Below are positions 4,126 to 36,061 of a DNA stretch of 64,000 bases, piece by piece; position 1 is the first letter of the stretch, and each line of letters starts with the position of its first letter. The stretch covers positions 73,316 to 137,315 of the forward strand of contig NZ_KB893559.1 in assembly GCF_000374085.1 (NCBI RefSeq), in the 5' to 3' direction. The notes beneath the pieces are model-generated. The model was not told where the DNA came from and searched no databases. It saw nothing but the letters and a program-made list of their open reading frames with translations. Made by a program: the position numbers and the translations under genes. The DNA comes from Spirosoma spitsbergense DSM 19989 (GTDB lineage Bacteria > Bacteroidota > Bacteroidia > Cytophagales > Spirosomataceae).

Positions 4126-4167
4126 AAGTACGATCAAAAGTAAAGAGAAGTCAACCGGTTTTTGTTT

Positions 4168-4872: not shown

Positions 4873-4884
4873 TTTGTTGCCATG

Positions 4885-5055
4885 CCCCCCCTTTCACTCA
4901 TTCGCTCATTCGCCCTTTTACTCCGCTTCGGCGTTCCGATTCACTCCGGTTCGGCGTTCCGATTCGCTCCGGTTCGGCGTTCCGATTCACTCCCTTTCGC
5001 CCTTTCGCCCTTTCGCCCTTTCACTCTTTCGCTCATTCGCTCTTTCACTCATTAA
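4885..5055. repeat. degenerate tandem repeat array in ybbA-ybbP spacer
   Basis: The spacer is almost wholly repetitive. Three 23-bp copies beginning TTCGGCGTTCCGATTC lie at 4927-4949, 4950-4972 and 4973-4995. On both sides are 7-bp words (CTTTCGC, TTCACTC, ATTCGCT). TCACTCTTTC near 5024-5033 is complementary to GAAAGAGTGA in the last codons of the ATPase gene, so the transcript can fold across the junction. Confidence 0.8.
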
Positions 5056-5058
5056 ACC

Positions 5059-7590
5059 ATGTGGCTCTTTACAATGGCGTGGCGCGACAGCCGCCGAAGC
5101 CGACAACGACTACTGCTCTTTATGTCGGCCATTGTGCTGGGCATTGCCGCGTTAGTGGCCATCAACTCCTTTGGCGATAACCTGGCCCGCAGCATCGACG
5201 AACAGGCCCGCGAACTATTGGGGGCCGACCTGACGCTCTCCTGGACGCGTGCCCCTTCGGCAAAAACGCAGCAGTTACTCAAAACGATTGGCCGCGACCG
5301 GGCGTACGAAGTGTCCTTTGCGTCGCTGGTTTCCACGCCCAAAAACGGCGGGGTTCGGCTGGCGCAGGTGAAAGGCCTACAGGGAAATTTCCCGTTCTAC
5401 GGAACGTGGGAAGTGCAGCCCGCATCGGCTATTCAGACGTTCCGGCAGGCTGCCAGCCGGATAGCGCTGGTCGATGATGCCTTACTGATTCAGATGGGTG
5501 CTCAGCCGGGCGATTCGGTACGGGTTGGCAACCTGTCGTTTCTCATTGTGGGGCGGGTGACAAAAACACCGGGGCAGGCGGCCATTGCGGCTACGGTGGC
5601 TCCCACCGTTTTCATCCCCAATCGATTCCTGGCCAATACGGGCCTGCTACAGCGGGGTAGCCGCATCGCTTACAAATATTATTACCAGCTGGCACCGGAC
5701 AAATCGACCAATACGGTAGATGCCGATAAGTTCATCAAACCCCTGGCTGCCCGTCTGGATAAAGAAGGCATCAACTACGATACCGTTACCGAACGCAAAA
5801 ACCAGACGGGTCGCTCCTTCGCCGACCTGACGAAGTACCTGAGTCTGGTGGCTTTCGTGGCCCTGTTGCTGGGTTGCGTCGGCGTGGCCAGTGCCGTGCA
5901 GCTGTACGTAAAGGAGAAGGTAGCCTCGGTGGCTATTTTGCGGACGCTGGGTGCCAGTGGTCGGCAGGCGTTCCTGATTTATCTATACCAGACGACCCTG
6001 ATGGGGCTGATTGGGGCTACCGTCGGGGCTGTTTTGGGGTCGGTGGTGCAGTTGCTGCTTCCCCGCATCTTCGGGAATTTTCTGCCCATTACCGTCGATA
6101 CGGCACTTTCGGGCCCCGCCATTTTAGGGGGCATTGGCACGGGGTTACTGATCTCCGTGCTGTTCTCCCTGCTGCCACTGCTGGCTATCCGCAACGTTTC
6201 GCCCCTGCGTACCCTGCGCACCTCCTACGAGGCTGATTTGCGGAACCGCGATCCCCTGCGCTGGCTGGTTTATGGGCTCGTTGTCTGTTTCATCGTTGGT
6301 TTCGCCTACTGGCAGACCAGGAATCTGCTGTTATCCGTTGGCTTCACGGGTGGACTGGTCGTCGCCTTCGGTCTGTTGACGGCCATTGGTCTGGGCCTGA
6401 TCGGGCTGGTACGGCGTTTTTTTCCGGCTTCGTGGAGTTATACCTGGCGGCAAAGTCTGGCAAATCTATACCGCCCCAACAACCAGACCCTTATCCTGAT
6501 AACCTCCATTGGGCTGGGGGCTTTTCTGATCGCCACCCTGTACCTGACGCAGGGCCTGCTGCTGGGCCGGGTCGAACTATCGGGCAGCGGCAACCAACCC
6601 AACATGGTGCTGTTCGACATTCAGAACGAGCAGCTGGCGGGCGTCAAATCGCTGGTGAAGGCGCAGAAGCTACCGATATTACAGGAGGTGCCGGTAGTGA
6701 CGATGCGCCTGATGGATATCAATGGAAAAAACGGCGAAACAGTCCGAAAAGACACGACCCAGAAACCGCCGAAGTGGGCCTTTACCCGCGAATACCGGGT
6801 TACCTACCGCGACTCGCTGATTTCGTCGGAGAAGCTGGCTTCGGGCAGGGCTCCCTATCAGTCAGACGGGGTCAGTTACATTTCCATCGAGAAAGGATTT
6901 TTTGAGCGAATGCACCTGAAACTGGGCGATACCCTGAATTTCAACGTGCAGGGTGCCCCCATTCAAACCCTTGTTGGCGGTACGCGCGAGGTAGAATGGA
7001 ATCGGGTTCAGACCAATTTCGTGGTGGTTTTTCCGGCCGGTGTCCTGGAACAGGCACCCCAGTTTCACGTGCTGATGACACGGGTACCCGACAACCGAAC
7101 GTCGGCGGTCCTACAGCGTGGGCTGGTAAGCAGTTTTCCGAATGTGTCAGCCATCGACCTGGGCCTGATTCTGAAAACGATTGACGAGATTCTGGCCCAG
7201 ATTTCGTTCGTGATTCAGTTCATGGCCCTGTTCAGCATATTGACCGGTCTGTTGGTGCTGGCCAGTTCGGTCGTTATCAGCAAGTTTCAGCGGCTCCGCG
7301 AAAGTGTGCTGCTGCGTACGCTGGGGGCCAGCCGGAACCAGATTCTGGGCATTACGTTTCTGGAATACAGCCTGTTAGGATTCGTGGCGGCTCTGTCCGG
7401 CATTCTACTGTCGATAGCCGGTACGTGGGGGCTGGCCCGTTTCGTGTTCGAGGTACCGTACCGACCCGATGCCCTGCCTTTGCTCGTTATTACCGGGGTT
7501 GTAACGGGTTTAACCATCCTGATCGGGGTTTTCAACAGCCGTGATGTATTGGTAAAGCCACCCCTTGAGGTGCTGCGGGCGGAGGTGTAG
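5059..7590 (+). CDS. ybbP: ABC transporter permease with FtsX domains, YbbP-like
   Basis: 843 residues. A first transmembrane helix near residues 17-36 (LLLFMSAIVLGIAALVAI) is followed by a periplasmic MacB-PCD-like domain. The first FtsX unit is at about 255-380 (LVAFVALLLGCVGVASAVQL; VASVAILRTLGASGRQAF), central helices at about 405-510, a second periplasmic domain at 510-720 and a second FtsX unit at about 720-835 (ESVLLRTLGASRNQILG). Two copies of the LRTLGAS coupling-helix motif fit a monomeric double-FtsX permease of the YbbP type. With the upstream ATPase and the divergent TesA-like esterase it reproduces the tesA/ybbAP locus. The substrate is unknown; a role in moving lipids or releasing acyl products at the membrane is inferred from that neighbour. 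Confidence 0.88.
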   Translation: MWLFTMAWRDSRRSRQRLLLFMSAIVLGIAALVAINSFGDNLARSIDEQARELLGADLTLSWTRAPSAKTQQLLKTIGRDRAYEVSFASLVSTPKNGGVRLAQVKGLQGNFPFYGTWEVQPASAIQTFRQAASRIALVDDALLIQMGAQPGDSVRVGNLSFLIVGRVTKTPGQAAIAATVAPTVFIPNRFLANTGLLQRGSRIAYKYYYQLAPDKSTNTVDADKFIKPLAARLDKEGINYDTVTERKNQTGRSFADLTKYLSLVAFVALLLGCVGVASAVQLYVKEKVASVAILRTLGASGRQAFLIYLYQTTLMGLIGATVGAVLGSVVQLLLPRIFGNFLPITVDTALSGPAILGGIGTGLLISVLFSLLPLLAIRNVSPLRTLRTSYEADLRNRDPLRWLVYGLVVCFIVGFAYWQTRNLLLSVGFTGGLVVAFGLLTAIGLGLIGLVRRFFPASWSYTWRQSLANLYRPNNQTLILITSIGLGAFLIATLYLTQGLLLGRVELSGSGNQPNMVLFDIQNEQLAGVKSLVKAQKLPILQEVPVVTMRLMDINGKNGETVRKDTTQKPPKWAFTREYRVTYRDSLISSEKLASGRAPYQSDGVSYISIEKGFFERMHLKLGDTLNFNVQGAPIQTLVGGTREVEWNRVQTNFVVVFPAGVLEQAPQFHVLMTRVPDNRTSAVLQRGLVSSFPNVSAIDLGLILKTIDEILAQISFVIQFMALFSILTGLLVLASSVVISKFQRLRESVLLRTLGASRNQILGITFLEYSLLGFVAALSGILLSIAGTWGLARFVFEVPYRPDALPLLVITGVVTGLTILIGVFNSRDVLVKPPLEVLRAEV

Positions 7591-7680
7591 GTAGATAATC
7601 AACGATGGGGTGTAGGAGAAGTTTGCCAGCCCGCACCGGCGGCCAGCCTACTGCTTATTGATTTGTAGTAATTAACCGCT

Positions 7681-7787
7681 GTTTTACCACCCCCAACCCC
7701 CTCCTTGAAGAAAGGAGGGGGCTATGAAAGGGGGTCCCCTTTTTTAAGCCCCCTCCTGTTTTAGGAGGGGGTTGGGGGTGGTAAAAC
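7681..7787. terminator. long inverted repeat between ybbP and proC
   Basis: A perfect 25-bp inverted repeat: 7681-7705 (starting GTTTTACCACCCCC) and 7763-7787. Two further small G/C hairpins are nested between the arms, with a T-run at 7739-7745. It sits between convergent genes and could terminate transcription from both sides. The ATTATCC words at 7793-7808 continue the repetitive character. Confidence 0.65.
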
Positions 7788-7813
7788 GCGTTCATTATCC
7801 ATTATCCATTTAC

Positions 7814-8617
7814 CTACCCTTCCGACAACTCGGTAGCCCGAACCTGTGCCGCCTTGATACCGGCTATCAGGGTATCGGATAAGGCGCCGGTTTCAAACGT
7901 ACGCAGGGCGGCCTCCGTGGTGCCCCCTTTGGAAGCGACGGCTTTGATCAGTTCATCCAGCGATTTATCGGCGTTGTTGATCAGGTGGTACGAGCCGAGC
8001 ATCGTCTGCTTCACCAGCAGGGAAGCCACGGCATCGCTGAAGCCCATCTGCTTCCCGGCTTCGACCATGGCCTTCACCACGTAGTAAAAGTAAGCAGGGC
8101 CGCTGCCGCTTAGTGCCGTAACGGCATCGAGCATGGCTTCGTCCTCCACAAATATCGACCGCCCCGTGGCATTGATCAGGTTCTCCACCCGGCGCAGACT
8201 GGTAAAGCCAACTTCTTTGGCCGCCGTAAAGCCGGTGATACCCATGCCGAGCATGGCCGGAGTGTTGGGCATGGCCCGCACCACCAGCGGGTGAGCCAGC
8301 TTCTCCTGAATCTGCTTAATGGGAATGCCCGCCATAATAGACAGGATTACCTGATTGGGCTGGACCACCGCCCGCAACGACGCGTGAACACTGTTGAAAT
8401 CCTGCGGCTTCACCGACAAAATGATCAGGTCGACTTCGCCAACGTGCGGCCCAATAGTTTCTACGACTACGCCTGCCTTCTCGGCCTTTAACGTCTCCGA
8501 ACGGTCACTACTTTTTTCGATGAGGAGCAGGTCATCTTTTTTCACCAGATCATACTGTAAAAACGATTTGGCAAAGGCCATGCCCATATTACCGCAACCG
8601 ACGATAGCAATTTTCAT
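7814..8617 (-). CDS. proC: pyrroline-5-carboxylate reductase
   Basis: 267 residues from the ATG at 8615-8617; the frame is open upstream but this start begins directly with the Rossmann motif MKIAIVGCGNMG. Further family features are SVKPQ, MPNTPAMLGMG, and the C-terminal dimer and substrate region TALSGSGPAYFYYVVKAM, then VASKGGTTEAAL. Catalyses NAD(P)H-dependent reduction of 1-pyrroline-5-carboxylate to proline, the last step of proline synthesis, in the cytoplasm. It is third in a minus-strand row gatB, thioredoxin lipoprotein, proC, but a terminator-like hairpin at 8659-8682 separates it from the gene before. Confidence 0.95.
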   Translation of the reverse strand: MKIAIVGCGNMGMAFAKSFLQYDLVKKDDLLLIEKSSDRSETLKAEKAGVVVETIGPHVGEVDLIILSVKPQDFNSVHASLRAVVQPNQVILSIMAGIPIKQIQEKLAHPLVVRAMPNTPAMLGMGITGFTAAKEVGFTSLRRVENLINATGRSIFVEDEAMLDAVTALSGSGPAYFYYVVKAMVEAGKQMGFSDAVASLLVKQTMLGSYHLINNADKSLDELIKAVASKGGTTEAALRTFETGALSDTLIAGIKAAQVRATELSEG

Positions 8618-8649
8618 AGTTGTTTCATGGCTTCGGCCATGACAGAGAC

Positions 8650-8682
8650 AAAACAAAAAGGGTCAGGCTTCCGCCCGACCCT
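8650..8682 (-). terminator. rho-independent terminator of the thioredoxin lipoprotein gene
   Basis: Hairpin AGGGTC-x-GGC / GCC-x-GACCCT with loop TTCC at 8659-8682. Read on the minus strand it is followed by TTTTTGTTTT, so it should end transcription of 8708-9844 before proC. Confidence 0.75.
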
Positions 8683-8707
8683 GCAAAACTAATGACTTAC
8701 GGTCAAC

Positions 8708-9844
8708 TCACTGACCACCTTTGAGAACTTCTTCCAGTTTTTGCTCCAGCGCATCCCCCCGCAGGTTCTTGGCAATGATTTTACCATTTCTATCGAGCAG
8801 GAATGTAGCCGGAATGGCCTGAACACCGTATTGCTGGGCAGCCGCCGACTGCCAGAATTTCAGGTCCGACACGTGCGTCCAGGCCAGGTTATCGTTGCGG
8901 ATGGCTTTTGTCCAGCTGTCTTTGGCCTTGTCGAGCGAAACGCTGTAAATGGCAAAGCCCTTGTCCTTGAACTTGTTATACATCCGAACCACGTTCGGGT
9001 TTTCGGCCCGGCAGGGTCCACACCACGACGCCCAGAAGTCGACCAGTACGTACTTCCCCCGCAACGACGACAGCGGAACGGGTGTACCGGTGGTATCGCT
9101 CAGGGCGATTTCGGGAGCCGCTGCGCCTACCGATACGCCTTTGATACGGGCCACCCGACCAATCAGCGATTTGGCATGGGGGCTATTTGGGTTCTCTTTC
9201 TCGAAGCGCTGCGCCATTTCATCATAGACGGCAAAGTCCGTGTCGATGTTGATGAAGTTAAGCGCAAACAGTGACGCCAGCGACGTGCCCATGGCGGGTA
9301 ACATCGCTTTCACTTTATTGACAACTTCCTGTTCGGCCGTCTGGTACTCCTGTTCGATCTGGGCAATTTTTTTGTTGTCTTTCTTCTCGGTAGCAACCGC
9401 AATCTGCTTGTTCCAGTTGGTAACTTTCGCTTCCATCTCGGTCCGCAGGGCCATCAGCTTTTCGTAGTACTCCATGTTTTTGGAGCCGGTTACGATTGCT
9501 TTCCCCAGTTGGCCGGTTTTCCCATCCATCCGGTACCCGTCGGCCTGCACATTCAGCGTTTCGCCCCCTTCTGCCAGTAGGGCCATTTTCTGATCGCCAC
9601 CCACATTGAGGATAAAAACCTCCCCACCGTCAGCTACGTTACTGGTCAGGGTAAACGTATTGTCGGTATTTACTTTGGCCGAGTCAAGTTTGCGGGTTGG
9701 CTGGGCGTTGGTTTCCAGATACACATAACTGCCCGGCGTTGCCTTCGTTACTTTTCCGGTAACGGTAAACGTTTTCGGGGTTTGAGCACAGGCGGTAAAG
9801 CTGATGACCAGCAAACCGGCCAGACTAAAAATAAGGTTTCTCAT
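8708..9844 (-). CDS. TlpA-type thiol-disulfide oxidoreductase with N-terminal DUF4369-like domain
   Basis: 378 residues. N-terminal signal with candidate lipobox FTAC (Cys19), so probably a lipoprotein facing the periplasm. Residues 25-120 form a beta-rich domain like DUF4369 (FTVTGKVTKATPGSYVYLE). A helical linker follows at 125-225, then a thioredoxin fold from about 240 with the active site WASWCGPC (Cys275, Cys278) and the cis-Pro region AIPATF. Such Bacteroidota proteins reduce periplasmic disulfides or supply electrons for cytochrome maturation. The start lies only 5 bp after the gatB stop, so it is transcribed with gatB. Hairpin at 8659-8682 ends the unit. Confidence 0.88.
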   Translation of the reverse strand: MRNLIFSLAGLLVISFTACAQTPKTFTVTGKVTKATPGSYVYLETNAQPTRKLDSAKVNTDNTFTLTSNVADGGEVFILNVGGDQKMALLAEGGETLNVQADGYRMDGKTGQLGKAIVTGSKNMEYYEKLMALRTEMEAKVTNWNKQIAVATEKKDNKKIAQIEQEYQTAEQEVVNKVKAMLPAMGTSLASLFALNFINIDTDFAVYDEMAQRFEKENPNSPHAKSLIGRVARIKGVSVGAAAPEIALSDTTGTPVPLSSLRGKYVLVDFWASWCGPCRAENPNVVRMYNKFKDKGFAIYSVSLDKAKDSWTKAIRNDNLAWTHVSDLKFWQSAAAQQYGVQAIPATFLLDRNGKIIAKNLRGDALEQKLEEVLKGGQ

Positions 9845-9849
9845 CGTGT

Positions 9850-11331
9850 CTATAATGTCTTTGTTAATAACTCATTGACCAGTTTGGGATCGGCTGAGCC
9901 TTTCGATTTTTTCATCACCTCCCCCACAAACAGCCCGAACAGGTTTTTCTTACCTTTTCGATACTGGGCTACTTTATCGGGCCAGGTTGCCAGTACCTCT
10001 TCTACCAACGTTTGCAACGCATCGGTATTGCGGTTCTGAATGAGGCCACTCCGTTGAGCCAGCTCGACAGGTGACGCGCCCGGCTGGTCGACCATCAGAG
10101 TAAACACCTGCTGAGCAGCCGTCTGGCTCACGGTTCCTTCATCTATCAACGTAATCAACGAGGCCAGTCGTTCGGCTGAAACCGGAAATTGACGGTCGCG
10201 CAGCATTTTTTCGGTCAACTGTCCTTTCACCGGCCCCATTATCCAGTTCGATACCGCTTTGTAATTGGTCGTGTGCGCACAAACGGCTTCAAAATAATCG
10301 GCCAGTTCCCGCGCATCGGTCAGTACGGACGCATCGTAATCAGGCAGGTCATAGGTACGGGTAAACTGTTGGTACCGCGCTGCCGGAAGCAGGGGCATAG
10401 TGGCCCGAACGCTGGCCAGCCACTCGTCCGACACAACCACGGGGGTGAGGTCAGGATCAGGAAAGTAGCGGTAATCGTTCATGGTTTCTTTCTCGCGCAT
10501 GGCATAGCTAAGACCCGTGGCGGCATCGAAGGTGCGGGTTTCCTGCACGATACGTCCGCCCGTTTCCGTTAGCTGCACCTGCCGAAGAAATTCACCGTCA
10601 ACGGCCCGCATCACATTCCGGATCGAGTTCAGGTTCTTCACTTCAACCTTCGTGCCGAGATGTGTGGCTCCCTTGGGCCGGATAGAAACATTTACGTCGC
10701 AGCGCAGCGAACCTTCTTCCATGTTCCCATCGCAGATGTCCAGGTAACGAACCAGCCGCCTGACTTCGGTCAGGTACTGCCCGGCTTCGTCGGCGGTGCG
10801 GATACAGGGTTCCGTAACCATTTCGATGAGGGGTGTTCCCGCCCGGTTGTAGTCCAGTCGGGTAACCCACTCACTGCCATCGTGAATGGATTTACCGGCA
10901 TCTTCTTCCAGATGAATATGATGAAGCTGGATGGTAGTCTGATACGGTTTTCCGGTTTGCGGGTCTTTGGCGGTTATCAACACACCACCCCCTACGCAAA
11001 TCGGTCCTTTATCCTGCGACAGCTGGTAGCCTTTGGGCAGATCGGGGTAAAAATAATTTTTCCGGGCAAACACGTTATGGCGGGTAATTTCGCTACCACA
11101 GGCCAGCCCCATCCGGATGGCGTACTCGACGGCTTTCCGATTTAGTTTGGGTAACGTACCCGGATGCCCCAGGGTAATAACACTGATATGGGTATTCGGC
11201 TCAGCACCAAATGCATTGGCATCAGCCGCAAAAATTTTGCTTTCCGTAAGCAACTGACAGTGTATTTCCAGCCCGACAACAACTTCATAGTGGGAAAGAA
11301 TAGCTGACGAAAGGGTTGCTTCAACGACCAT
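9850..11331 (-). CDS. gatB: Asp-tRNA(Asn)/Glu-tRNA(Gln) amidotransferase subunit B
   Basis: 493 residues, the usual length. N-terminal hallmark EVVVGLEIHCQLLTESKIF, then LPKLNRKAVEYAIRMGLACG and KNYFYPDLPKGYQLSQ. The GatB catalytic cradle includes GTPLIEMVTEP and RCDVNVSIRPKG. The C-terminal GatB/YqeY helical domain (about 350-493) binds tRNA. GatB with GatA and GatC converts mischarged Glu-tRNA(Gln) or Asp-tRNA(Asn) to the correct form. gatA and gatC are not in this window. A -7 like box TATCTTTG lies on the minus strand at 11355-11362. Confidence 0.96.
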   Translation of the reverse strand: MVVEATLSSAILSHYEVVVGLEIHCQLLTESKIFAADANAFGAEPNTHISVITLGHPGTLPKLNRKAVEYAIRMGLACGSEITRHNVFARKNYFYPDLPKGYQLSQDKGPICVGGGVLITAKDPQTGKPYQTTIQLHHIHLEEDAGKSIHDGSEWVTRLDYNRAGTPLIEMVTEPCIRTADEAGQYLTEVRRLVRYLDICDGNMEEGSLRCDVNVSIRPKGATHLGTKVEVKNLNSIRNVMRAVDGEFLRQVQLTETGGRIVQETRTFDAATGLSYAMREKETMNDYRYFPDPDLTPVVVSDEWLASVRATMPLLPAARYQQFTRTYDLPDYDASVLTDARELADYFEAVCAHTTNYKAVSNWIMGPVKGQLTEKMLRDRQFPVSAERLASLITLIDEGTVSQTAAQQVFTLMVDQPGASPVELAQRSGLIQNRNTDALQTLVEEVLATWPDKVAQYRKGKKNLFGLFVGEVMKKSKGSADPKLVNELLTKTL

Positions 11332-11354
11332 TGGCAGAGTATACTAATTTTAAG

Positions 11355-11362
11355 CAAAGATA
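11355..11362 (-). promoter_or_regulatory. candidate -7 box for gatB
   Basis: TATCTTTG on the minus strand matches the Bacteroidota -7 consensus TAnnTTTG, 24 bp before the gatB start codon. I see no TTG at the expected -33 distance, so support is partial. Confidence 0.4.
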
Positions 11363-11519
11363 GGCAGAAATAAAACAGGGCCGGGTGCCGATGACTTTCC
11401 GGAAATATATAAACTGACCAAATAGTAAATACATAGTCTGTAAGGTGTCTACTTTTTAGCTATTCATCGTCTAAATCCTAATTCGTGTTGCTTTACGAAT
11501 ACTAACCCATCTACCGGAA

Positions 11520-12416
11520 ATGACTACCCAGACTGTTGAACTAGCCCGTGATAAGGGTATTGTGGTCGAAAAAAAGTACCACCTGAGTTATGAGGCCTTT
11601 AAGAAAGAGCATCTTTTTGGCAATTACCCCGTCGTGATTGGTGATGCCTGCGCCGACTGGTCAGCGAAGAATAAATTTACCCCTGCTTTTTTTAAGGAAA
11701 ACTATAGTGACCGGGAGGTGAGCATAGCCGGACAAACCTATACCCTGGGTGAATACATCGACTGGATGATGACGGGCACCGAAGCAAACCCGGCACCGTA
11801 CCCCTGCACCCTGCAAATGGAGAGCGATTACCCGGAACTGATGCCCGACGTGCTGCCCCGGCTCAAATACGCCCTCCCCGACCGCATCAAGAGCCCATTT
11901 CTACCGAATCGGTTATTGTCCGGGGCAAACACGCTGGAGATTTTTTTTGGCAGTCCGGGTGCGCAGTTTCCGTACGTGCATTACGATTACATGAGTCTGC
12001 ATGCGTACATCACCCAGTTGTACGGGCAGAAAGAATTCACCGTCATTCCACCGGATCAAACACCCTACCTTTACCCCAAACCAGACAATTTATGGGTGTC
12101 GGAGGTGAATGACATTCGTAATCCAGACCTGGAGAAATACCCGTTATTCGCGAAAACAACCCCCGTTACCTTCGTGGTTGGCCCCGGCGAAACCCTGTTT
12201 ATTCCCTGCGGCTGGTGGCATACGGCCCGCTCCCTTACGCCAACGATATCCGTCGCGCTGGACTGCCTGAATGCGTCCAACTGGAAGAATTTCATGCACG
12301 AAGTAGACATGAATATGCAGGAGCGTAAACCCAAACTGGCCAAAGCCGTTCAGGCGTATTTGTCGGTACTGGGTGGAGTACTGGGAACACTCGAAAAAGC
12401 AGGCGTGAGCGTCTAG
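11520..12416 (+). CDS. JmjC/cupin_8-like Fe(II) oxygenase
   Basis: 298 residues. The cupin/JmjC metal triad is visible: H154-x-D156 (VHYDY) and H234 (PCGWWHTARS). The cofactor strand LYGQKEFTVIPPDQ supplies a Lys (K171) in the position used for 2-oxoglutarate. The N-terminal motif FGNYPVVIGDACADWSA is typical of cupin-like proteins. Known relatives are 2-oxoglutarate-dependent hydroxylases of proteins or tRNA; the substrate here is unknown. It is convergent with crtB (15 bp gap) and monocistronic in appearance. Confidence 0.8.
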   Translation: MTTQTVELARDKGIVVEKKYHLSYEAFKKEHLFGNYPVVIGDACADWSAKNKFTPAFFKENYSDREVSIAGQTYTLGEYIDWMMTGTEANPAPYPCTLQMESDYPELMPDVLPRLKYALPDRIKSPFLPNRLLSGANTLEIFFGSPGAQFPYVHYDYMSLHAYITQLYGQKEFTVIPPDQTPYLYPKPDNLWVSEVNDIRNPDLEKYPLFAKTTPVTFVVGPGETLFIPCGWWHTARSLTPTISVALDCLNASNWKNFMHEVDMNMQERKPKLAKAVQAYLSVLGGVLGTLEKAGVSV

Positions 12417-12431
12417 GGAACAACCCGAACG

Positions 12432-13268
12432 TTAAAGTACATTCAGCCTGTACTTCACGTAGGTCTGGGCCAGGAGGGCGAATTTTTGCGGGTTCGGTAC
12501 GCGGATCCGCTCACTTTGAACGCGGGATGCCGGAAGGCGCTTTATTTTATTGAACAACGCCTGATAATATACGTAAGCCAGATAAACGCCCATTCGGGCA
12601 CCATGAGGCAAGTTCAGAATGCCAATGTAAGCCGCATCGAAGTCATGCTGGATATCCGTTTCAATTAGTTTCTTCGTATCGCCACCAAAGTCACTAAAAT
12701 CGACACCGGGGAAATAAGTACGTCCCCGGTCAACGAAATCACTCTTCATATCGCGCAGAAAATTCACCTTCTGGAAGGCGGCTCCCAGTTTTGAGGCAGC
12801 TCCCTTCAACCGGTCGAACTGAGTGCAATCGCCTTCACAGAATACCCGCAGGCACATCAGGCCCACTACTTCGGCCGAACCATAAATGTACTCCTGGTAC
12901 CCTTCCTTATCATAATCCTGGTTGTACAGGTCCATTTCCATACTTTTCAGGAAGGCCTCGATCAACGCATGCTCAATCTTGTATTCGTTAACGATTAATT
13001 GAAACGACTGCAGAATGGGATTCAAACTTATGCCTTCTTCGATAGACTGATACGTATCGTGCCGAAAGCGTTTGAGCAGGGTCTCTTTGTCAAACTCGTG
13101 GAACGTATCCACAATTTCGTCGGCGTATCGAACATACCCATAAATGGCGTATATAGGCAGGTGGAATTTACGATCCAGTGTTTTAATGCCTAATGTAAAC
13201 GACGTACTGTACCGTTCAGTAACTAATTTACTGCATTCCAGTGCTGTTTTATTGAATAACGCCATCAT
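12432..13268 (-). CDS. crtB: phytoene/squalene synthase family protein
   Basis: 278 residues starting at the double ATG 13265-13268. The open frame extends 35 codons upstream, but family members begin about 20 residues before the ERYSTSF motif seen here. The two aspartate-rich motifs that bind diphosphates through Mg are present: D50-EIV-D54 (YVRYADEIVD) and D173-MKS-D177 (NFLRDMKSDFVDRGR). Condenses two geranylgeranyl diphosphates to phytoene, the first committed carotenoid step. Directly downstream of crtI on the same strand (113 bp gap), so an operon crtI-crtB is likely. Confidence 0.88.
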   Translation of the reverse strand: MMALFNKTALECSKLVTERYSTSFTLGIKTLDRKFHLPIYAIYGYVRYADEIVDTFHEFDKETLLKRFRHDTYQSIEEGISLNPILQSFQLIVNEYKIEHALIEAFLKSMEMDLYNQDYDKEGYQEYIYGSAEVVGLMCLRVFCEGDCTQFDRLKGAASKLGAAFQKVNFLRDMKSDFVDRGRTYFPGVDFSDFGGDTKKLIETDIQHDFDAAYIGILNLPHGARMGVYLAYVYYQALFNKIKRLPASRVQSERIRVPNPQKFALLAQTYVKYRLNVL

Positions 13269-13381
13269 AAGGTTTAAGCTACGGTTTTTTTTCGAAACAC
13301 AGGAAAGATACAGCAGGAAACCAGATAAGCATAGGATAGCGATAAATCTACCCCGTCTTCCCTGCTCATTCAACTTGAAAA

Positions 13382-14854
13382 CTAACTAAATTCCTTGGCA
13401 ACTTCATCGGCCACCACCAGTCCCGATATCAGTGACGGGGGTACACCCGGTCCGGGTACCGTCAACTGACCGGTATAAAACAGGTTGCTGACAGCCTTAT
13501 TCTTCAAGGATGGCTTTAGTAAGGCCGTTTGCCGAAGCGTATTGGCAAGCCCGTAGGCATTTCCCCGAAAGGCATTATAGTCCTGCTGAAAATCATTGTG
13601 GGCGTAACTCCGTTTGAATACGATATGATCCCGTATGTTCTCACCGACATACGCTTCCAGGCGGGTCATAATCATATCGAAATAATGGTCGCGGGTAGCG
13701 TCATCGTCCGTAAGACCGGGAGCCACCGGAATGAGTAAAAACAGGTTTTCGCACCCCTGGGGTGCTACGCCAGGATCTGTTTTTGACGGAGCCGACGCGT
13801 AGAATAAGGGTTTGGAAGGCCAGCGTGGCGTCTCGTAGATCTCCTGCGCGTGGAGGTTGAAATCCTCATCGAAAAACAGGTTATGATGCAGCAAACGGGG
13901 TACCCGTTTGTTAACCCCCAGGTAGAATAACAGCGACGAAGGAGCCATAACCCGGCTTTTCCAATACGCATCGTCGTAATTCCGGTAAGCAGGGTCGACC
14001 AGACTGGTTTCAACGTGATTATAATCGGCCCCCGCTATGACCACATCTGCTTCGAAAATACCGGTGTCGGTAACGACCCGCTGCGCCTTCTTATCGACAA
14101 CCTCAATTTTCTGAACGGCCTGGTTCAGTAAAATCTTTACGCCTTTTTCCTGAGCCAGGCTAACCATAGCCTTCACAATTTCGTGCATTCCCCCCATCGG
14201 GTACCAGGTTCCCAATGCCATTTCGGCATAGTTCATCAGGCTATACATGGCGGGGGTATTCTCGGGCGTTGCCCCCAGGAACAATACCGGAAACTCGACA
14301 ATTTCGAGCAGACGGGGATGGGTAAAAAACTTGCGGGCGTGCGTGGCAAAAGACTGAAATACATCCAGACGGGTAACGTCGAACAGGAGCTTGAGGCTCA
14401 TAAATTCAGTAACCGAACGACTGGGTTTCCAGACAAATTTATTCATCCCTACCTCATATTTGTAGGAGGCCTGTTTGAGAAAGGAACGTAGTTGTAGCCC
14501 ACTGCCCGGTTCTATCTGTTCAAAAAGTACTTCCAGGTTATCGACACCGGCGGGCAGGTCAATGGCTTCGTCCGGCCCAAAAATAACAGAGTACGACGGA
14601 TCGAGTCGAACAAGATTATAGTAGTCGGATGGCTTTTTACCAAATCGGGCGAAGTAGGTTTCAAATACGTCGGGCATCCAATACCAGCTTGGCCCCATAT
14701 CGAATGTAAAGCCTTCAGCCTGGAAAACGCGTGCCCGGCCCCCGGGCATGTCGTTCTTTTCGAGAAGTGTAACGTCGTACCCTTTATCGGCAAGACTGGT
14801 AGCGGCCGCCAGTCCGGCAAACCCGGCCCCTATAACTAAGATACGCTGCGGCAT
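13382..14854 (-). CDS. crtI: phytoene desaturase
   Basis: 490 residues, the normal CrtI size. It begins with the FAD dinucleotide-binding motif VIGAGFAGLAAATSLADKGY (residues 6-25) and EKNDMPGGRARVF. The amine-oxidase middle region includes GPSWYWMPDVFE and YPMGGMHEIVKAM. The C-terminal FAD motif TVPGPGVPPSLISGLV is typical of bacterial CrtI enzymes. Introduces conjugated double bonds into phytoene, giving lycopene-type carotenoids. With crtB it forms a minimal pigment unit; no cyclase or ketolase is in the window. An ECF sigma factor lies upstream on the same strand, separated by a strong terminator. Confidence 0.93.
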   Translation of the reverse strand: MPQRILVIGAGFAGLAAATSLADKGYDVTLLEKNDMPGGRARVFQAEGFTFDMGPSWYWMPDVFETYFARFGKKPSDYYNLVRLDPSYSVIFGPDEAIDLPAGVDNLEVLFEQIEPGSGLQLRSFLKQASYKYEVGMNKFVWKPSRSVTEFMSLKLLFDVTRLDVFQSFATHARKFFTHPRLLEIVEFPVLFLGATPENTPAMYSLMNYAEMALGTWYPMGGMHEIVKAMVSLAQEKGVKILLNQAVQKIEVVDKKAQRVVTDTGIFEADVVIAGADYNHVETSLVDPAYRNYDDAYWKSRVMAPSSLLFYLGVNKRVPRLLHHNLFFDEDFNLHAQEIYETPRWPSKPLFYASAPSKTDPGVAPQGCENLFLLIPVAPGLTDDDATRDHYFDMIMTRLEAYVGENIRDHIVFKRSYAHNDFQQDYNAFRGNAYGLANTLRQTALLKPSLKNKAVSNLFYTGQLTVPGPGVPPSLISGLVVADEVAKEFS

Positions 14855-15058
14855 CAGTTTATACGTATTGATGTAGTCAACAGATAATTACCTGATGAAG
14901 CACTTTGTTTATATGAATGCATAGTAAAACGGCTGGTAAGATAGGCAGCCGGGAAGCAGAGAACAAAAATGGGGAGTGCAAAAGACAAACTCGTTCATCA
15001 TCACTATAGGTGGTACAACTATGAATAACTCACTGACTATAAAAAGTTCAGCACAAAA

Positions 15059-15092
15059 AAAAAGTTAAGTGGAATCCACTTAACTTTTTCGA
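15059..15092 (-). terminator. terminator after the ECF sigma factor gene
   Basis: Arms AAAAAGTTAAGTGGA and TCCACTTAACTTTTT (15059-15089), effectively a 3-nt loop, with a run of nine T on the minus strand and six on the plus strand. It lies in the 311-bp spacer between crtI and the sigma factor gene, so crtI must have its own promoter within 14855-15058, where I see no consensus box. Confidence 0.8.
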
Positions 15093-15165
15093 ACCTTCCT
15101 CTTTTTTAACCAAAAACTACTCAATTAATATAAATTAGACGCAGTAGTTCCTAAAAAGTATCACG

Positions 15166-15681
15166 TTATACATTAAAATAGGCATAAACTTTTAATTGAT
15201 CCTTCAATTCCTTCCGGGCTATGTGAATTCTGTTCTTCACCGTACCGATGGGAATATTCAGTTTAGCGGCTATCTCATGGTACTTAAAACCACGGAAGTG
15301 CATCATGAAAGGTGTTTTATAGGTGTCATCGAGGCCATTTACTGCCCGATTGATATCGTTCTGGGCGAATGACGAGTAAGCCAGGTTATTCGTGCTGCTC
15401 TCGATAGAGTTTATATAGTGCAAATTATCAGTCGTATCGATAAAGGTGTTCTTGCGCACCATACGCTGGTAATTGGTAATGAAGGTATTCTTCATAATTG
15501 TATATAACCAGGCCTTCAGATTCGTACCATCCGTGTATTTGTCGCGGTTGGTAAATGCTTTCAGTAGTGTGTCCTGCAGCAAATCGTTTGCATCTTCAAC
15601 ATCTTTCGTCAGGCGCAGGGCGAATGGGCGTAGTGATTTAGATACTTTGCCGATATGGTTTGTAAATTCGATGGCTGTCAT
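15166..15681 (-). CDS. ECF-type RNA polymerase sigma factor
   Basis: 171 residues. Region 2 is at about 10-80 (LTKDVEDANDLLQDTLLKAF, then NLKAWLYTIMKNTFITNYQR) and region 4 at about 115-165 (KYHEIAAKLNIPIGTVKNRI). The domain order and size are those of group 4 (ECF) sigma factors. No anti-sigma gene is adjacent, which is unusual for canonical ECF pairs but common in Bacteroidota. Similar sigma genes sit next to crtI-crtB in other Bacteroidota as far as I recall, so control of carotenoid synthesis is plausible (inference). The upstream spacer 15682-16029 is unusually palindromic. Confidence 0.9.
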   Translation of the reverse strand: MTAIEFTNHIGKVSKSLRPFALRLTKDVEDANDLLQDTLLKAFTNRDKYTDGTNLKAWLYTIMKNTFITNYQRMVRKNTFIDTTDNLHYINSIESSTNNLAYSSFAQNDINRAVNGLDDTYKTPFMMHFRGFKYHEIAAKLNIPIGTVKNRIHIARKELKDQLKVYAYFNV

Positions 15682-31574: not shown

Positions 31575-31967
31575 CTATGCCTGGGCCACTGTTGTAAAGC
31601 TAATCAATTCAACATCGATTTTTCGGTTCATCTCATCAAGTAGACTAACATGAGAATGAAGCTGACCAGATTTAGAAGGCTGTAAAGAACGGCCAGGCTT
31701 TTTGCCTGACATGTCCAGTAGCAACGTCATTAGAATGTCACTCATCTGGTCACGTAACTCCATAAGTTTGCGTAACCTAACCCGGTTAGCCGTAGCAGCG
31801 GGCTGCTGACGAGCCGCAGTGTGTAATGAATTGATAACTTGATTCAGTTTGGCATAACGACGATGAAATGCTTCTGTTACAGTTGCCCACTCCGTAACTA
31901 CCTTTTGAATTTCTTCAACTGAGGCTTCGTAGCCAGAGATTATTGCTGATTCTTGTTGATTCATCAC
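31575..31967 (-). CDS. hypothetical helical protein
   Basis: 130 residues (an ATG three bases in gives 129). No family recognised. Predicted almost all helical: EASVEEIQKVVTEWATVTEA and RRYAKLNQVINSLHTAARQQ look coiled-coil, then RLRKLMELRDQMSDILMTLL, a basic Ser/Lys linker (GKKPGRSLQPSKSGQ) and a last helix SLLDEMNRKIDVEL. No signal peptide and no membrane segment. Divergent from the LuxR-type regulator at 32261, with a 293-bp spacer containing strong palindromes, so the two may be regulated together. Convergent with dnaG. Confidence 0.6.
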   Translation of the reverse strand: MMNQQESAIISGYEASVEEIQKVVTEWATVTEAFHRRYAKLNQVINSLHTAARQQPAATANRVRLRKLMELRDQMSDILMTLLLDMSGKKPGRSLQPSKSGQLHSHVSLLDEMNRKIDVELISFTTVAQA

Positions 31968-32260: not shown

Positions 32261-32944
32261 ATGAATCCATCTACCAGTGTCCAGGAGGGCGCTAGACAAT
32301 TTGCTATTCGCCGTAGGGACTTTTCAATCCTTGTCGCCCAATCTGAAATCTTCAACTGTGAAGTGTTGAGTCAACTCTTGAAAGAGCAAGGCTACAACGT
32401 AGTTGGCCGGGCTGTTGAGTTAGAAGACACCCTCCAGCAGATAAGAGTGAAGCGCCCTAACTGTGTCATTCTGGAATCAGACCTTTCGGATGAACATAGC
32501 TTTGACATTGTCGAGCAGATGCAAGCAACAAAGTTTATCCTTTACACACGCAAGCCTGACTTTAGGATGGTGGCAAAGGCTATGCAAAAAGGCTTCTTCG
32601 GATTTCTATATGCTACCGATGGACTGGATGAATTATACCAGTGCTTTCAAACGGTTAGTAACGGAGGTTGCTACTATAGCAATGGATTCATGAATTTACT
32701 TCGAAATTTTGGTGTCGATGTGATTTCAGAGTCTACACGTGAAGAACTGAAGCGGTTATCGGAACGGGAACGGGAAGTGCTACGAATGATTGCCAGCGGA
32801 TTTACGTCCGGCGAAATCGCTGATAAATTAAATATCAGCTACCGGACAGCCGTAAACCATAAGGCTAACATAGCCCACAAGCTAAATTTAGAAAGCTGTC
32901 GGCAGTTGCCGCGTTATAGCATTTCTGTAAAGAACTACCTGTAG
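32261..32944 (+). CDS. orphan LuxR/NarL-type regulator with degenerate receiver
   Basis: 227 residues. N-terminal receiver-like domain at about 20-145 and a LuxR/GerE helix-turn-helix at about 160-220 (LKRLSEREREVLRMIASGFT, SGEIADKLNISYRTAVNHKA), which is a good DNA-binding domain. The receiver lacks the usual chemistry: the acidic pair is replaced (ILVAQSEIF, A26-Q27), the phosphoacceptor position reads ILESDLS so that Glu72 aligns where Asp is expected, and the conserved Lys is not seen in FGFLYATD. It is therefore probably not switched by phosphorylation, or locked in an active-like state. No histidine kinase is adjacent. Followed by a 39-aa ORF and a terminator at 33194. Confidence 0.85.
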   Translation: MNPSTSVQEGARQFAIRRRDFSILVAQSEIFNCEVLSQLLKEQGYNVVGRAVELEDTLQQIRVKRPNCVILESDLSDEHSFDIVEQMQATKFILYTRKPDFRMVAKAMQKGFFGFLYATDGLDELYQCFQTVSNGGCYYSNGFMNLLRNFGVDVISESTREELKRLSEREREVLRMIASGFTSGEIADKLNISYRTAVNHKANIAHKLNLESCRQLPRYSISVKNYL

Positions 32945-33586: not shown

Positions 33587-34588
33587 TTAGACTAAGTTGG
33601 CAGGCTCTGTCTTACTGGCATCACGTCCCTGTAGCCATTCCCTGAACTCATGCATCCGAACACGGGGAACAATTATTTCATGTTGGTCAGGCGTGTTCAG
33701 ATTGACGATGTACTTGCCATTTTCCCAATAGGAGTAATGTAATACCGCCTGTCGGTTAACGATATAATCGCGTTTGATCCGAAAGAATTGGGTAGGATCC
33801 AGTTCTGTTTCGAGTTCATTCAGCGTCTTACTGACCATGTACCGCTCTTTCAGGGATTCGGCATAATAAAACCGATCTTCGACGGTGAAGTAATAAACCT
33901 CGTTAACTGGGAAGTCCAGTTCCCCCGTAGCGCTCTTACCTTTCAGATAAGCCAGGTGGGGCGAGGAAACGGTCGGTTTTGGTGAGAATGTTTCAGATAG
34001 TGCCAATACTTTTTGAGACGCTTCCGCGGCTTCGGCTTCGGCTTTTTCCTGCGCTTCCCGTCGCTGTTTCAAATAGTCCTGAAAAAACGAAATATTGAGC
34101 GCGACATAACCAATGAGCAAAACAGGGAACAGATACACAAAATAAAAGTGCCATGTAAATGTTTTCAGCATGTAGTTACCCCAATAGTCACCGAATGAGT
34201 AAGCCGGATATTGCTCCAATAGGTACCGTACACTTTGGGTAACAGGGTTGAAAACCAGAAATGAAAAAGTGAGAACCGGTAAAAACTTTAGTTCATATCG
34301 TCCAATAGATTCCCATTTATACTTGACAGTTCTCAGTTTTAACCACGTATGAGTCTTATTAAGAAGAAATACAACGATGAACAACGTACATAATTCAGGG
34401 AGAAGCATTTCCCGGCTAACACGCCCAATGTACTTCAAGAAGCCACCTGCTTCCTGTACTCGAGCGACTTTAATATCTGAGCCTATAGTCCAGGATGCAG
34501 CTTCTAACAGCAAATAGATGACCAGCAGTATATACACGCTGTTCACCGGATTGCGTAGAAAACTCTTGGTCAGGCGAATCTCTTTCAT
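33587..34588 (-). CDS. membrane-bound LytTR-family regulator
   Basis: 333 residues. Four hydrophobic segments in the N-terminal half: about 16-34 (VYILLVIYLLLEAASW), 62-80 (LCTLFIVVFLLN), 100-118 (FLPVLTFSFLVFNPV) and 148-172 (YFVYLFPVLLIGYVALNISF). A charged Ala/Glu coiled coil follows (QRREAQEKAEAEAAEASQKV), then a LytTR DNA-binding domain at about 220-322 (VNEVYYFTVEDRFYYAESL, RIKRDYIVNRQAVLHY). It has no receiver and no kinase domain, so it is a one-component membrane sensor-regulator. It is divergent from the 54-aa peptide gene and its acyltransferase, making those its most likely targets and the modified peptide a possible ligand (inference). Confidence 0.85.
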   Translation of the reverse strand: MKEIRLTKSFLRNPVNSVYILLVIYLLLEAASWTIGSDIKVARVQEAGGFLKYIGRVSREMLLPELCTLFIVVFLLNKTHTWLKLRTVKYKWESIGRYELKFLPVLTFSFLVFNPVTQSVRYLLEQYPAYSFGDYWGNYMLKTFTWHFYFVYLFPVLLIGYVALNISFFQDYLKQRREAQEKAEAEAAEASQKVLALSETFSPKPTVSSPHLAYLKGKSATGELDFPVNEVYYFTVEDRFYYAESLKERYMVSKTLNELETELDPTQFFRIKRDYIVNRQAVLHYSYWENGKYIVNLNTPDQHEIIVPRVRMHEFREWLQGRDASKTEPANLV

Positions 34589-34668
34589 TGGCTACCTTAC
34601 TAAAATCTAAGACTAATATAGTGGTAAAATTTAACTAAACACAACTGTTCAATGTGACTTTTTTGTGA

Positions 34669-34699
34669 TTGATGCCCTTTAGACTGGCTGGTAGCTTTG
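34669..34699 (+). promoter_or_regulatory. promoter of the peptide-acyltransferase operon
   Basis: TTG at 34669-34671, 20-nt spacer, TAGCTTTG at 34692-34699, an exact Bacteroidota consensus identical in its -7 box to the gldH promoter. It leaves a leader of roughly 60 nt before the peptide ATG at 34769. The 180-bp region 34589-34768 is shared with the divergent LytTR gene. Confidence 0.7.
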
Positions 34700-34768
34700 T
34701 ATCAACAAAAAGGTAGGCAGTGCCACCTTGATAAATCAAGCAATCAAATCATTCTAATTAATCATATC

Positions 34769-34933
34769 ATGAAAAATCAATTCAGCATCAAGCCAGCCGA
34801 GTCACTGAAAAAAATCAAATCTTCAGTAGCTAAAAAAGAATCTAACAGTATCCTGAAATTTTCACTTCTTTCAGAATGCTGCGCAATGGGACCAGACCTT
34901 AACCGCTTCTCAACTCCCGTTTTCTCCCTTTAA
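34769..34933 (+). CDS. 54-aa RiPP-like precursor peptide
   Basis: 54 residues from the ATG at 34769; the open frame extends further upstream, but that part overlaps the promoter. The first 26 residues, starting MKNQFSIKPAESLKKIKSSV, are Lys-rich and look like the amphipathic leader of Bacteroidota natural-product precursors (MK...F-x-L/I-K...). The second half is Ser/Thr/Cys-rich and hydrophobic: ILKFSLLSECCAMGPD, then LNRFSTPVFSL, with adjacent Cys37-Cys38. No signal peptide and no double-glycine site. The stop is 12 bp from the start of an acyltransferase with a PqqD-like tail, so the two are one operon. The precursor reading is inference from size, composition and neighbour; no known RiPP class matches. 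Confidence 0.6.
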   Translation: MKNQFSIKPAESLKKIKSSVAKKESNSILKFSLLSECCAMGPDLNRFSTPVFSL

Positions 34934-34945
34934 CCAGCAAGAACC

Positions 34946-36061
34946 ATGCTAACCATACGGCAACTTTATGACCAGGAGTTAGCTCGTTGTCGTGAACACT
35001 TCGAAAAGGTAGACCTGCAAAGAGAGCGGGGATACCTAATGAAGTTCACTACTTTCTCCGCTAATGTTGAAAATATTCTGCCCTCAGTACCCCGTGAGGA
35101 CCATGAAGATCTTTTTAGGGAGTTACTACTACAGCAAATATATACAACATTCGATCAGCAGTGCCTTACGGCTGCTGAGCTGATAAAGACCCGGGGTAAT
35201 CATGATTTACTGAAAAAAGAGGCCGGTCCCAAAATTTACTGCACCTACCACCTCGGTTCTTACCGTTTATTGACAAGTGTGCTCTTTAGAAACGGTGTTG
35301 ACTGTGTGCTTCTTGTGGGAAGTGGCATGAATCGCCAGCAGGGCGATGGTATGGCCGAGCACATTGAAGGACTGCGGCAAAAACATGGACTGACCAATCT
35401 TTTCCGAGTCGTAGAAGCGGGTAGCCCATCGGCTGGGTTAACCGTAATGCGGGAATTGAAAGCAGGCAGATCGTTGATTGTTTATGTTGATGGCAGTCCT
35501 GAAACAGGACCGCAGGAGGGAGAAGAATCGCAGTTTTTGTCGGTTCGCTTTGGTTCCCGACGGCTGCTTACCCGAAAAGGGGTTGGTTATTTATCGCACG
35601 CAACGAATGTACCTATCGTACCGGTCGTAAATTATCGGGAGGCTAATATGACAAATGTGTTACATTGCCTCAAGCCGATTCGTCCCATTGCCAAAAGTGA
35701 TCGGGAGATGTACTGCCAGGAGGTTATGCAACAGCTTTACGATGCTTTTTGGTCATACCTCAAGCGGTATCCTGGCCAATGGGAAGGCTGGAATTACATT
35801 CATTTGTTCCTACAGCCGGAAGTCACTAAAAATACCTTCTTCGGCTATCACAGCGAGCGTCCTACTTTCAATGAAAAGCGCTATACTCTGTGTGACTTTG
35901 AGCAGGCCCCCGTTTTGTTCGACCGGCAGCTTTACCAGACGTTCGAGATTACGGAAGACCTGAAGGATTTACTCCTGAACATCCATACACTAGACTCGGT
36001 CGAAGAAGTAGTGGGTGAACAAGTATTTACTGAATTAGTAAGCATGGGAATAATTCATTGA
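34946..36061 (+). CDS. LpxL/HtrB-like acyltransferase with PqqD/RRE-like C-terminal domain
   Basis: 371 residues. Residues about 95-290 resemble the LPLAT fold of lipid A acyltransferases: YCTYHLGSYRLL (His102, in the position of the catalytic HLGNWE of HtrB but with Arg107 in place of the acidic residue), LIVYVDGSPETG and NVPIVPVVNYRE. There is no N-terminal membrane anchor. Residues about 325-371 (LYQTFEITEDLKDLLLNIHT, then VEEVVGEQVFTELVSMGIIH) have the pattern of PqqD-type RiPP recognition elements. Twelve bp behind the 54-aa peptide gene. I infer an enzyme that binds the peptide leader with its C-terminus and attaches an acyl group. The alternative is an ordinary lysophospholipid acyltransferase beside an unrelated peptide. 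Confidence 0.72.
   Translation: MLTIRQLYDQELARCREHFEKVDLQRERGYLMKFTTFSANVENILPSVPREDHEDLFRELLLQQIYTTFDQQCLTAAELIKTRGNHDLLKKEAGPKIYCTYHLGSYRLLTSVLFRNGVDCVLLVGSGMNRQQGDGMAEHIEGLRQKHGLTNLFRVVEAGSPSAGLTVMRELKAGRSLIVYVDGSPETGPQEGEESQFLSVRFGSRRLLTRKGVGYLSHATNVPIVPVVNYREANMTNVLHCLKPIRPIAKSDREMYCQEVMQQLYDAFWSYLKRYPGQWEGWNYIHLFLQPEVTKNTFFGYHSERPTFNEKRYTLCDFEQAPVLFDRQLYQTFEITEDLKDLLLNIHTLDSVEEVVGEQVFTELVSMGIIH

Follow-up and report, generated by a model that had tools for sequence, protein, structure and literature searches.

Is the short peptide gene that precedes an acyltransferase gene in Spirosoma spitsbergense DSM 19989 the source of that enzyme's substrate? This question is raised by a 64,000-nucleotide stretch of contig NZ_KB893559.1 (positions 73,316 to 137,315 of the forward strand, assembly GCF_000374085.1), which we call the window. 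In it, a peptide gene is followed on the same strand, after a gap of 12 bp, by the gene of an acyltransferase, and the gene of a membrane LytTR regulator diverges from both (Table 1); re-reading of the open reading frames (ORFs) confirmed these gene positions and the spacing as an earlier sequence-only reading had given them. We consider it probable that the locus encodes a two-gene system for a ribosomally synthesized and post-translationally modified peptide (RiPP), in which an enzyme of the lysophospholipid acyltransferase (LPLAT) fold, guided by its own RiPP recognition element (RRE), acylates the peptide, perhaps at Cys38, under the control of its neighbours.

The peptide gene accompanied the orthologous enzyme in all of the loci read for it. 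Protein searches detected an orthologous acyltransferase in 34 of the 35 other Spirosoma genomes (35/36 with the own genome; the single genome without one is 71% complete), the closest named locus being that of Spirosoma luteum (88% acyltransferase identity). In 35/35 Spirosoma loci, the own genome included, the acyltransferase is preceded at a distance of 3-26 bp by a peptide homologue, and a homologue stands beside the enzyme in all 17 loci from Fibrisoma (n = 2), Larkinella (n = 7), Runella (n = 7), and Rhabdobacter (n = 1). It also adjoins the enzyme in one further genus (locus L181), and some loci carry two or three tandem copies. The peptides, represented in the window by MKNQFSIKPAESLKKIKSSVAKKESNSILKFSLLSECCAMGPDLNRFSTPVFSL, have the leader pattern MKKxFxIK...AKxE followed by Cys-Cys or Ser-Cys; in a 27-row alignment M1, F5, E24, and C38 are invariant and K2, K3, I7, and K22 nearly so. 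Cysteine occurs in 52 peptides only as a Cys-Cys pair (48) or as a single Cys after Ser (4), and the commonest ending is FSL (30/52), so that the Ser/Thr/Cys end described by the sequence-only reading proved a loose characterization. The median dN/dS across 100 peptide-gene pairs (identity 50-97%, dS under 2) was 0.25, which points to purifying selection, and a peptide profile matched this locus alone in the 23 Spirosoma genomes searched (next matches E = 0.27 or worse). Given its conserved position, its dN/dS, and the lack of other good profile matches, the 54-aa ORF appears to be a real gene and not a chance ORF, and the conserved small ORF beside homologues, which the same reading had set as a test, was found in all of the 35 and 17 loci. 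The arrangement is that of a RiPP locus, with a short precursor gene, a conserved leader, a distinct core, and an adjacent putative maturase.

The last 64 residues of the acyltransferase are modelled as an RRE fold, with moderate scores. Modelled separately, the domain reached a predicted local distance difference test (pLDDT) value of 92, with three strands followed by three helices. Comparison by hhalign with the N-terminal region of 30 radical-SAM/SPASM maturases (from 29 of 30 loci plus L031) gave an alignment of 63 columns (score 30.6, probability 80.6%), whereas 100 shuffles of the columns never took the score above 15.5, and five segments from elsewhere in the enzyme stayed at or below 10.2; a radical-SAM maturase model was matched weakly by 3/31 family members (best E = 0.01). 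In Foldseek, the first six PDB chains were lasso-peptide B1 proteins solved with leader peptides (probability 0.97). VIA Z-scores, which below 8 can reflect a common arrangement, were 6.4, 6.2, and 6.0 for lasso B1 proteins, 5.9 for TigE, 5.0 for PqqD, and 2.4 for the DNA-binding domain of the response regulator PhoP. When 390 genomes of the order were searched with the enzyme profile, its C-terminal end matched, among the matches listed, three free-standing proteins, 90-99 residues long (E = 2e-6 to 2e-4; one of the matches runs across a stop codon). All three exceed the cut-off of the Pfam PqqD model and have lasso-type surroundings, with a lasso B2 protein confirmed for one. These results suggest, by fold and remote homology, that the acyltransferase is an RRE-bearing maturase and a predicted leader binder; the similarity to PqqD or other RREs on which the sequence-only reading had staked its proposal was recovered by hhalign, Foldseek, VIA, and profile matches. 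A separate observation concerns the lasso-type clusters of the same family (L177-L179), where a sulfotransferase-like gene, recognised by eye, adjoins the PqqD protein.

The remainder of the enzyme matches LPLAT structures and not the GNAT fold. Its model (mean pLDDT 88) has PatA (E = 3e-10) and LpxM (E = 7e-10) as the nearest solved structures. No Pfam family matched the window acyltransferase at E up to 1, and the cut-off of the LpxL/HtrB family PF03279 was not reached, while some distant relatives do pass it; the NCBIfam lauroyl acyltransferase model matched residues 69-279 weakly (E = 8e-6, far below its curated cut-off), and the only PDB sequence matched by the full enzyme profile was a designed protein (E = 0.065). 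The sequence HLGSYR bears out the earlier claim of an H-x4-R active site in place of H-x4-D/E. This substitution extends through the family, as the residue at H+5 was never D or E in 29/29 members and Cys occupied H-3 in 28/29, giving CxxHX4(R/S/Q/P/N) in place of HX4(D/E). Motif conservation was judged from this 29-member alignment because a contig scan itself used the motif I[YF]CT[YF]HLG; in the alignment, six of the 28 loci other than the window (L100, L101, L102, L104, L105, and L110) came from that scan. C99, H102, G104, D182, G183, Q278, W279, and W282 belong to the columns that do not vary in a 31-member alignment, even at identities as low as approximately 21-29%, which argues that the pocket is under selection. 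The own genome encodes, in addition, a separate canonical LpxL with HX4E (HQCNWE).

Distant homologues (approximately 21-34% identity) keep both the LPLAT domain and the C-terminal part. RiPP-maturase markers (Lant_dehydr_N, radical-SAM, HExxH protease, and grasp-with-spasm) were present in 15/26 distant-relative loci compared with 0/13 loci of canonical LpxL (13 genomes, one match taken per genome). These 26 loci differ in length (3.5-19 kb) and do not count as independent, four of those with Lant_dehydr_N coming from Spirosoma; L103, L106, and L111, duplicates of L206, L034, and L033, had been left out beforehand. Seven loci that had supplied the markers (L031, L032, L037, L038, L102, L110, and L203, the last through L183) are positive by construction, with supportive family scans, and without them 8/19 distant loci were positive; one marker match, radical SAM in L204, was weak (E = 2e-18). 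A ketosynthase match was found in 13/26 distant loci. At single loci, L031 encodes a radical-SAM/SPASM maturase and a daptide-type protease, both below curated NCBIfam cut-offs, Lant_dehydr_N exceeds its cut-off in L032, L106, and L110, the grasp-with-spasm enzymes of L183, L185, and L102 are strong matches below cut-offs, and L185 also has an aromatic amino-acid lyase.

Several of these relatives have further features of their own. L106 (Spirosoma terrae), where fatty-acid-type enzymes occur with an AMP ligase, a phosphopantetheinyl transferase, and a thioesterase, holds at 4163-15318 a hybrid cluster that also comprises a short-chain dehydrogenase, two ketosynthases, a FabA/ApeI-like dehydratase, the RRE-LPLAT, and a Lant_dehydr_N protein, and similar clusters occur in L032 and L034-L036. 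Judged by its gene content, this cluster type combines a fatty-acid/aryl-polyene-like assembly with a dehydratase of RiPP type. The RRE-LPLAT of L036 (8950-10151 in the orientation analysed) is divided between two frames of 126 and 279 aa that overlap, likely a broken copy or a sequencing error. L037 contains, at about 5900-10017, at least four tandem precursor-like ORFs (SLTEGLYVVALEERLETVELAAEAAYTSC...) followed by an HExxH protease and the RRE-LPLAT, and bears grasp-with-spasm and aromatic-lyase markers as well. Tandem small ORFs with a common (S/N)IEELEARQELSV-type leader and one or few Cys come after two consecutive LPLAT-like genes in L101 (9651-10508) and L107 (9833-10664), from a Saprospiraceae and a Chitinophagales metagenome-assembled genome.

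We further examined the regulators around the pair in 64 loci, 58 of them orthologue loci (several represent one genome under two names). The divergent membrane LytTR gene was present in 58/58 orthologue loci, and in 55/58 a NarL-type regulator was encoded on the + strand no more than 5 kb upstream; of the other three loci, one has it at 7.8 kb, one gave no convincing match, and one lies at a contig end. The membrane part showed 3-6 hydropathy windows per protein (13 proteins; hydropathy only), compatible with the four helices attributed to it earlier. All 13 aligned response regulators carry Glu at the receiver position where an Asp phospho-acceptor would presumably be expected. Across 34 family genomes, strong matches to both regulators stood beside the enzyme in 10/10 orthologue-bearing genomes, which represent four genera, and in 0/24 of those without an orthologue among the matches listed, two of which had a weaker LytTR membrane match (E ~ 1e-16). 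This distribution indicates that the LytTR and response regulators are co-inherited with the peptide/enzyme pair. Between the divergent genes, the putative operator block is conserved across an alignment of 32 of the 35 Spirosoma loci, with ACTAA repeats approximately 22 bp apart in Spirosoma, whereas Larkinella and Runella show mainly a TAGT...ACTA dyad; a plain LytTR direct-repeat operator was set aside on account of this dyad. As for the consensus promoter that had been claimed before the peptide, no sigma-70-type promoter was found upstream of the peptide on its strand, but TTG-N20-TAGCTTTG is present and follows what we take to be the Bacteroidota promoter consensus; the TANNTTTG box of this putative promoter occurs at most 330 nt upstream of the peptide in 33/35 loci. 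Solitary proteins of 176-184 residues in L211 (4977-5531) and L212 (5005-5535) correspond to the membrane part of the LytTR sensor alone (44-46% identical), lacking the DNA-binding domain; the genomes concerned (G687 and G644) also hold the full locus.

Table 1 Features of the peptide/acyltransferase locus, with positions in the window
Feature	Position	Strand	Remarks
NarL-type response regulator, co-inherited	32261..32944	+	Receiver Glu replaces phospho-acceptor Asp
Membrane LytTR regulator	33587..34588	-	Membrane part 34019-34588; LytTR DNA-binding domain about 33632-33910
Putative operator	34612..34638	.	ACTAATATAGTGGTAAAATTTAACTAA; conserved; single copy in own genome, up to 3 mismatches
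Putative Bacteroidota-type promoter of peptide operon	34669..34699	+	TTG (34669-34671), N20, TAGCTTTG (34692-34699)
54-aa precursor-like peptide	34769..34933	+	Leader MKNQFSIKPAESLKKIKSSVAKKESN; Cys37-Cys38 in the core; ends in FSL; boundary of leader and core guessed
Cys37-Cys38 codons	34877..34882	+	Cys38 is the only invariant core residue (27-row alignment, five genera)
371-aa acyltransferase, LPLAT fold with C-terminal RRE (predicted)	34946..36061	+	Sequence, structure model, fold matches
Active-site motif C99-T-Y-H102-L-G-S-Y-R107	35240..35266	+	CxxHX4R in place of HX4D/E; family alignments
Predicted RRE, residues 308-371	35867..36058	+	Strand-strand-strand-helix-helix-helix; models, hhalign, Foldseek, VIA, profile matches

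We propose a mechanism in three steps. The C-terminal RRE would bind the conserved leader, most simply as an added beta strand. The LPLAT domain would then move a fatty acyl group from acyl carrier protein (acyl-ACP) or coenzyme A (acyl-CoA) onto the core, the favoured acceptor being the thiol of Cys38, an acceptor that would fit two features of the family, namely that the catalytic His has lost its acidic partner throughout and that a Cys at H-3 could carry the acyl group. Finally, the lipopeptide would act at the membrane and be detected there by the LytTR protein inherited with it, and possibly by the response regulator that cannot be phosphorylated, with effects on the shared divergent control region; it may serve as a lipopeptide signal or reflect the state of the acyl pool. 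We rate it highly probable that this peptide is bound through the RRE and modified by the enzyme, and fatty acylation is quite probably the modification. Cys38 as the modified site comes a little short of an even chance, and sensing of the product by the LytTR protein is a tentative idea, slightly more doubtful again. Product, acyl site, export, and sensing are what we infer. A more far-reaching version would make RRE-fused LPLATs an undescribed class of RiPP-lipidating enzymes that S-acylate Cys through CxxH without a His-acid dyad and, in Spirosoma and its kin, would place them in a fixed minimal circuit whose lipidated peptide would be sensed directly, as a Gram-negative lipopeptide signal, by a LytTR factor embedded in the membrane; taken as a whole, we think this rather unlikely. 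The interpretation of the sequence-only reading is thus partly supported, in its anatomy, to which the RiPP-type surroundings of distant relatives and the shared inheritance with the LytTR gene lend further weight; its chemistry and signalling stay proposals.

A number of observations weigh against a lipidating, RRE-guided enzyme. The best Foldseek E-value of the RRE domain is just 0.09, VIA Z-scores around 6 fall below the telling level, and an unrelated chain reaches 4.4. PF05402 (PqqD) is absent from the 11 Pfam families matched at E up to 10 by residues 303-371 of the 31 members, no NCBIfam PqqD model matches the C-terminal domain, and hhalign against eight Spirosoma PqqD proteins gave no match (score 12.1; 60 shuffles up to 18.5); this thin PqqD set also failed to match the radical-SAM set. 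The PqqD-type pattern reported earlier thus stands as an RRE fold with remote homology, but not as a match to the PqqD models. The lost His-acid dyad could mean a dead or repurposed enzyme, and Cys as the acyl site is a choice and not a result, since Lys22 and Glu24 are conserved too. Among the distant relatives, 11/26 loci are without a maturase marker. Marker searches detected no RiPP-maturase marker within the window, and no protease or exporter was recognised by eye among the ORFs at 29-41 kb (five window proteins were family-scanned); no leader protease or exporter stood among the conserved neighbours either, and these may be encoded elsewhere.

Of the competing explanations, the one that survives best concerns only the fate of the product, which could be a lipopeptide bacteriocin or surfactant and not a signal; compatible with the first two steps, it is nevertheless unlikely. 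Some lipidated RiPPs are antimicrobial, lipolanthines being called antistaphylococcal in a reference title within PMC13060382, and the available part of that source reports that acylation left nostolysamide activity unchanged. The near-universal presence in the genus (35/36 genomes), the co-inherited regulators, and the fact that no immunity or export gene was recognised by eye among the ORFs at 29-41 kb argue instead for a house function. Slightly less credible still is an enzyme that acylates a lipid or envelope component, with the peptide as its regulator, activating or inactivating it by docking on the RRE-like domain. The fold is near those of PatA and LpxM, which acylate glycolipids, an exporter or protease was not recognised by eye at the locus, and the surroundings are conserved in Spirosoma and Fibrisoma, unlike those of a mobile cluster. 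However, the own genome has its separate canonical LpxL, many distant relatives lie near RiPP-type genes (L037, L101, and L107 with tandem precursor-like ORFs), and an invariant Cys38 would be needless in a mere docking peptide. We regard as improbable a pseudo-acyltransferase, or another reaction on the leader-bound peptide such as thioester or disulfide chemistry at C99: the absence of D/E at H+5 in all 29 members would fit it, but the eight invariant residues of the pocket speak against it, and the ketosynthase matches at half of the distant loci could mean a dedicated acyl supply. Finally, we consider it very improbable that the C-terminal domain, instead of binding a peptide, is a winged helix of the ordinary DNA-binding kind, for although the topology is common to RREs and winged helices, and helix-turn-helix proteins are among the main false positives according to the available text on RRE-Finder (PMC7470986), the leading structural matches are peptide-binding RREs, PhoP as the sole listed response-regulator DNA-binding domain scores low, and the domain-only profile matches are PqqD proteins.

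An RRE-guided acylating enzyme would differ from each of the known systems it resembles. The fold and active-site His are common to LpxL/HtrB/LpxM and PatA, whereas the Spirosoma enzyme has no D/E at H+5, a Cys at H-3, a C-terminal RRE, an upstream peptide gene, and no Pfam match. Residues 308-371 share fold and remote sequence similarity with the RREs of lasso-peptide B1/PqqD proteins and radical-SAM enzymes, but are fused to an acyltransferase C-terminus and missed by the PF05402 model. ComX/ComQ, Agr, and other modified-peptide quorum systems likewise gather a small peptide gene, an enzyme dedicated to modifying the peptide, and a regulator at a single locus; in this comparison, which is of the works-like kind only, a fatty-acyl transferase would replace the prenyltransferase or membrane protease, and a one-piece membrane LytTR protein the histidine kinase pair. 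GNAT-lipidated RiPPs (lipolanthines such as microvionin, goadvionins, lipoavitides, selidamides, and nostolysamides) also pair a precursor with a cluster-encoded acyltransferase, but, as far as the available part of PMC13060382 describes them, that enzyme has the GNAT fold, acts on the N-terminus or an Orn/Lys side chain, and belongs mostly to lanthipeptide clusters, whereas the Spirosoma system has an LPLAT enzyme with its own RRE and no further maturase detected at the window locus. The DAG-RiPPs of Bacteroidota (DybA/ChrH type) are likewise ribosomal peptides with a conserved Cys, there lipid-bearing, and use a signal peptide, a lipobox, and the Lgt/LspA/Lnt pathway (PMC12636315, in its available part). 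In contrast, none of the 52 peptides compared here has a strongly hydrophobic N-terminal stretch (mean hydropathy over 15 residues, within the first 29: median 0.51, maximum 1.33), so that by hydropathy only they lack the signal peptide and lipobox.

Lipidated RiPPs described in the available parts of these sources are made by GNATs (PMC13060382) or via the lipoprotein pathway (PMC12636315), and the word "acyltransferase" is absent from the RRE-Finder main text as available (PMC7470986). Our literature searches, whose coverage stopped short of subscription papers and supplements, found no description of an LPLAT-type RiPP enzyme among the papers listed, and for that reason its novelty is likely, not proven. 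If the proposal is true, an LPLAT with its own leader-binding domain would represent another, compact lipidation route, with one enzyme and one peptide. It would be of use in lipopeptide production and in genome mining, where the distant relatives lead to hybrid clusters containing Lant_dehydr_N, radical-SAM, grasp-with-spasm-like, and fatty-acid/aryl-polyene-like genes, and the co-inherited four-gene unit would provide a testable candidate for peptide signalling in Bacteroidota.

Beyond the peptide, the enzyme, and the regulators, neighbouring genes were conserved only in Spirosoma and Fibrisoma among the 64 loci scanned, except for dnaG, which is also upstream in Larkinella. No Rfam family reached its gathering score at the locus, and plasmid records gave no match. 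Between dnaG and the response regulator, a 130-aa hypothetical protein (31575-31967) has counterparts in nearly all of the scanned loci from Spirosoma and Fibrisoma but no match in those from Larkinella, Runella, or Rhabdobacter.

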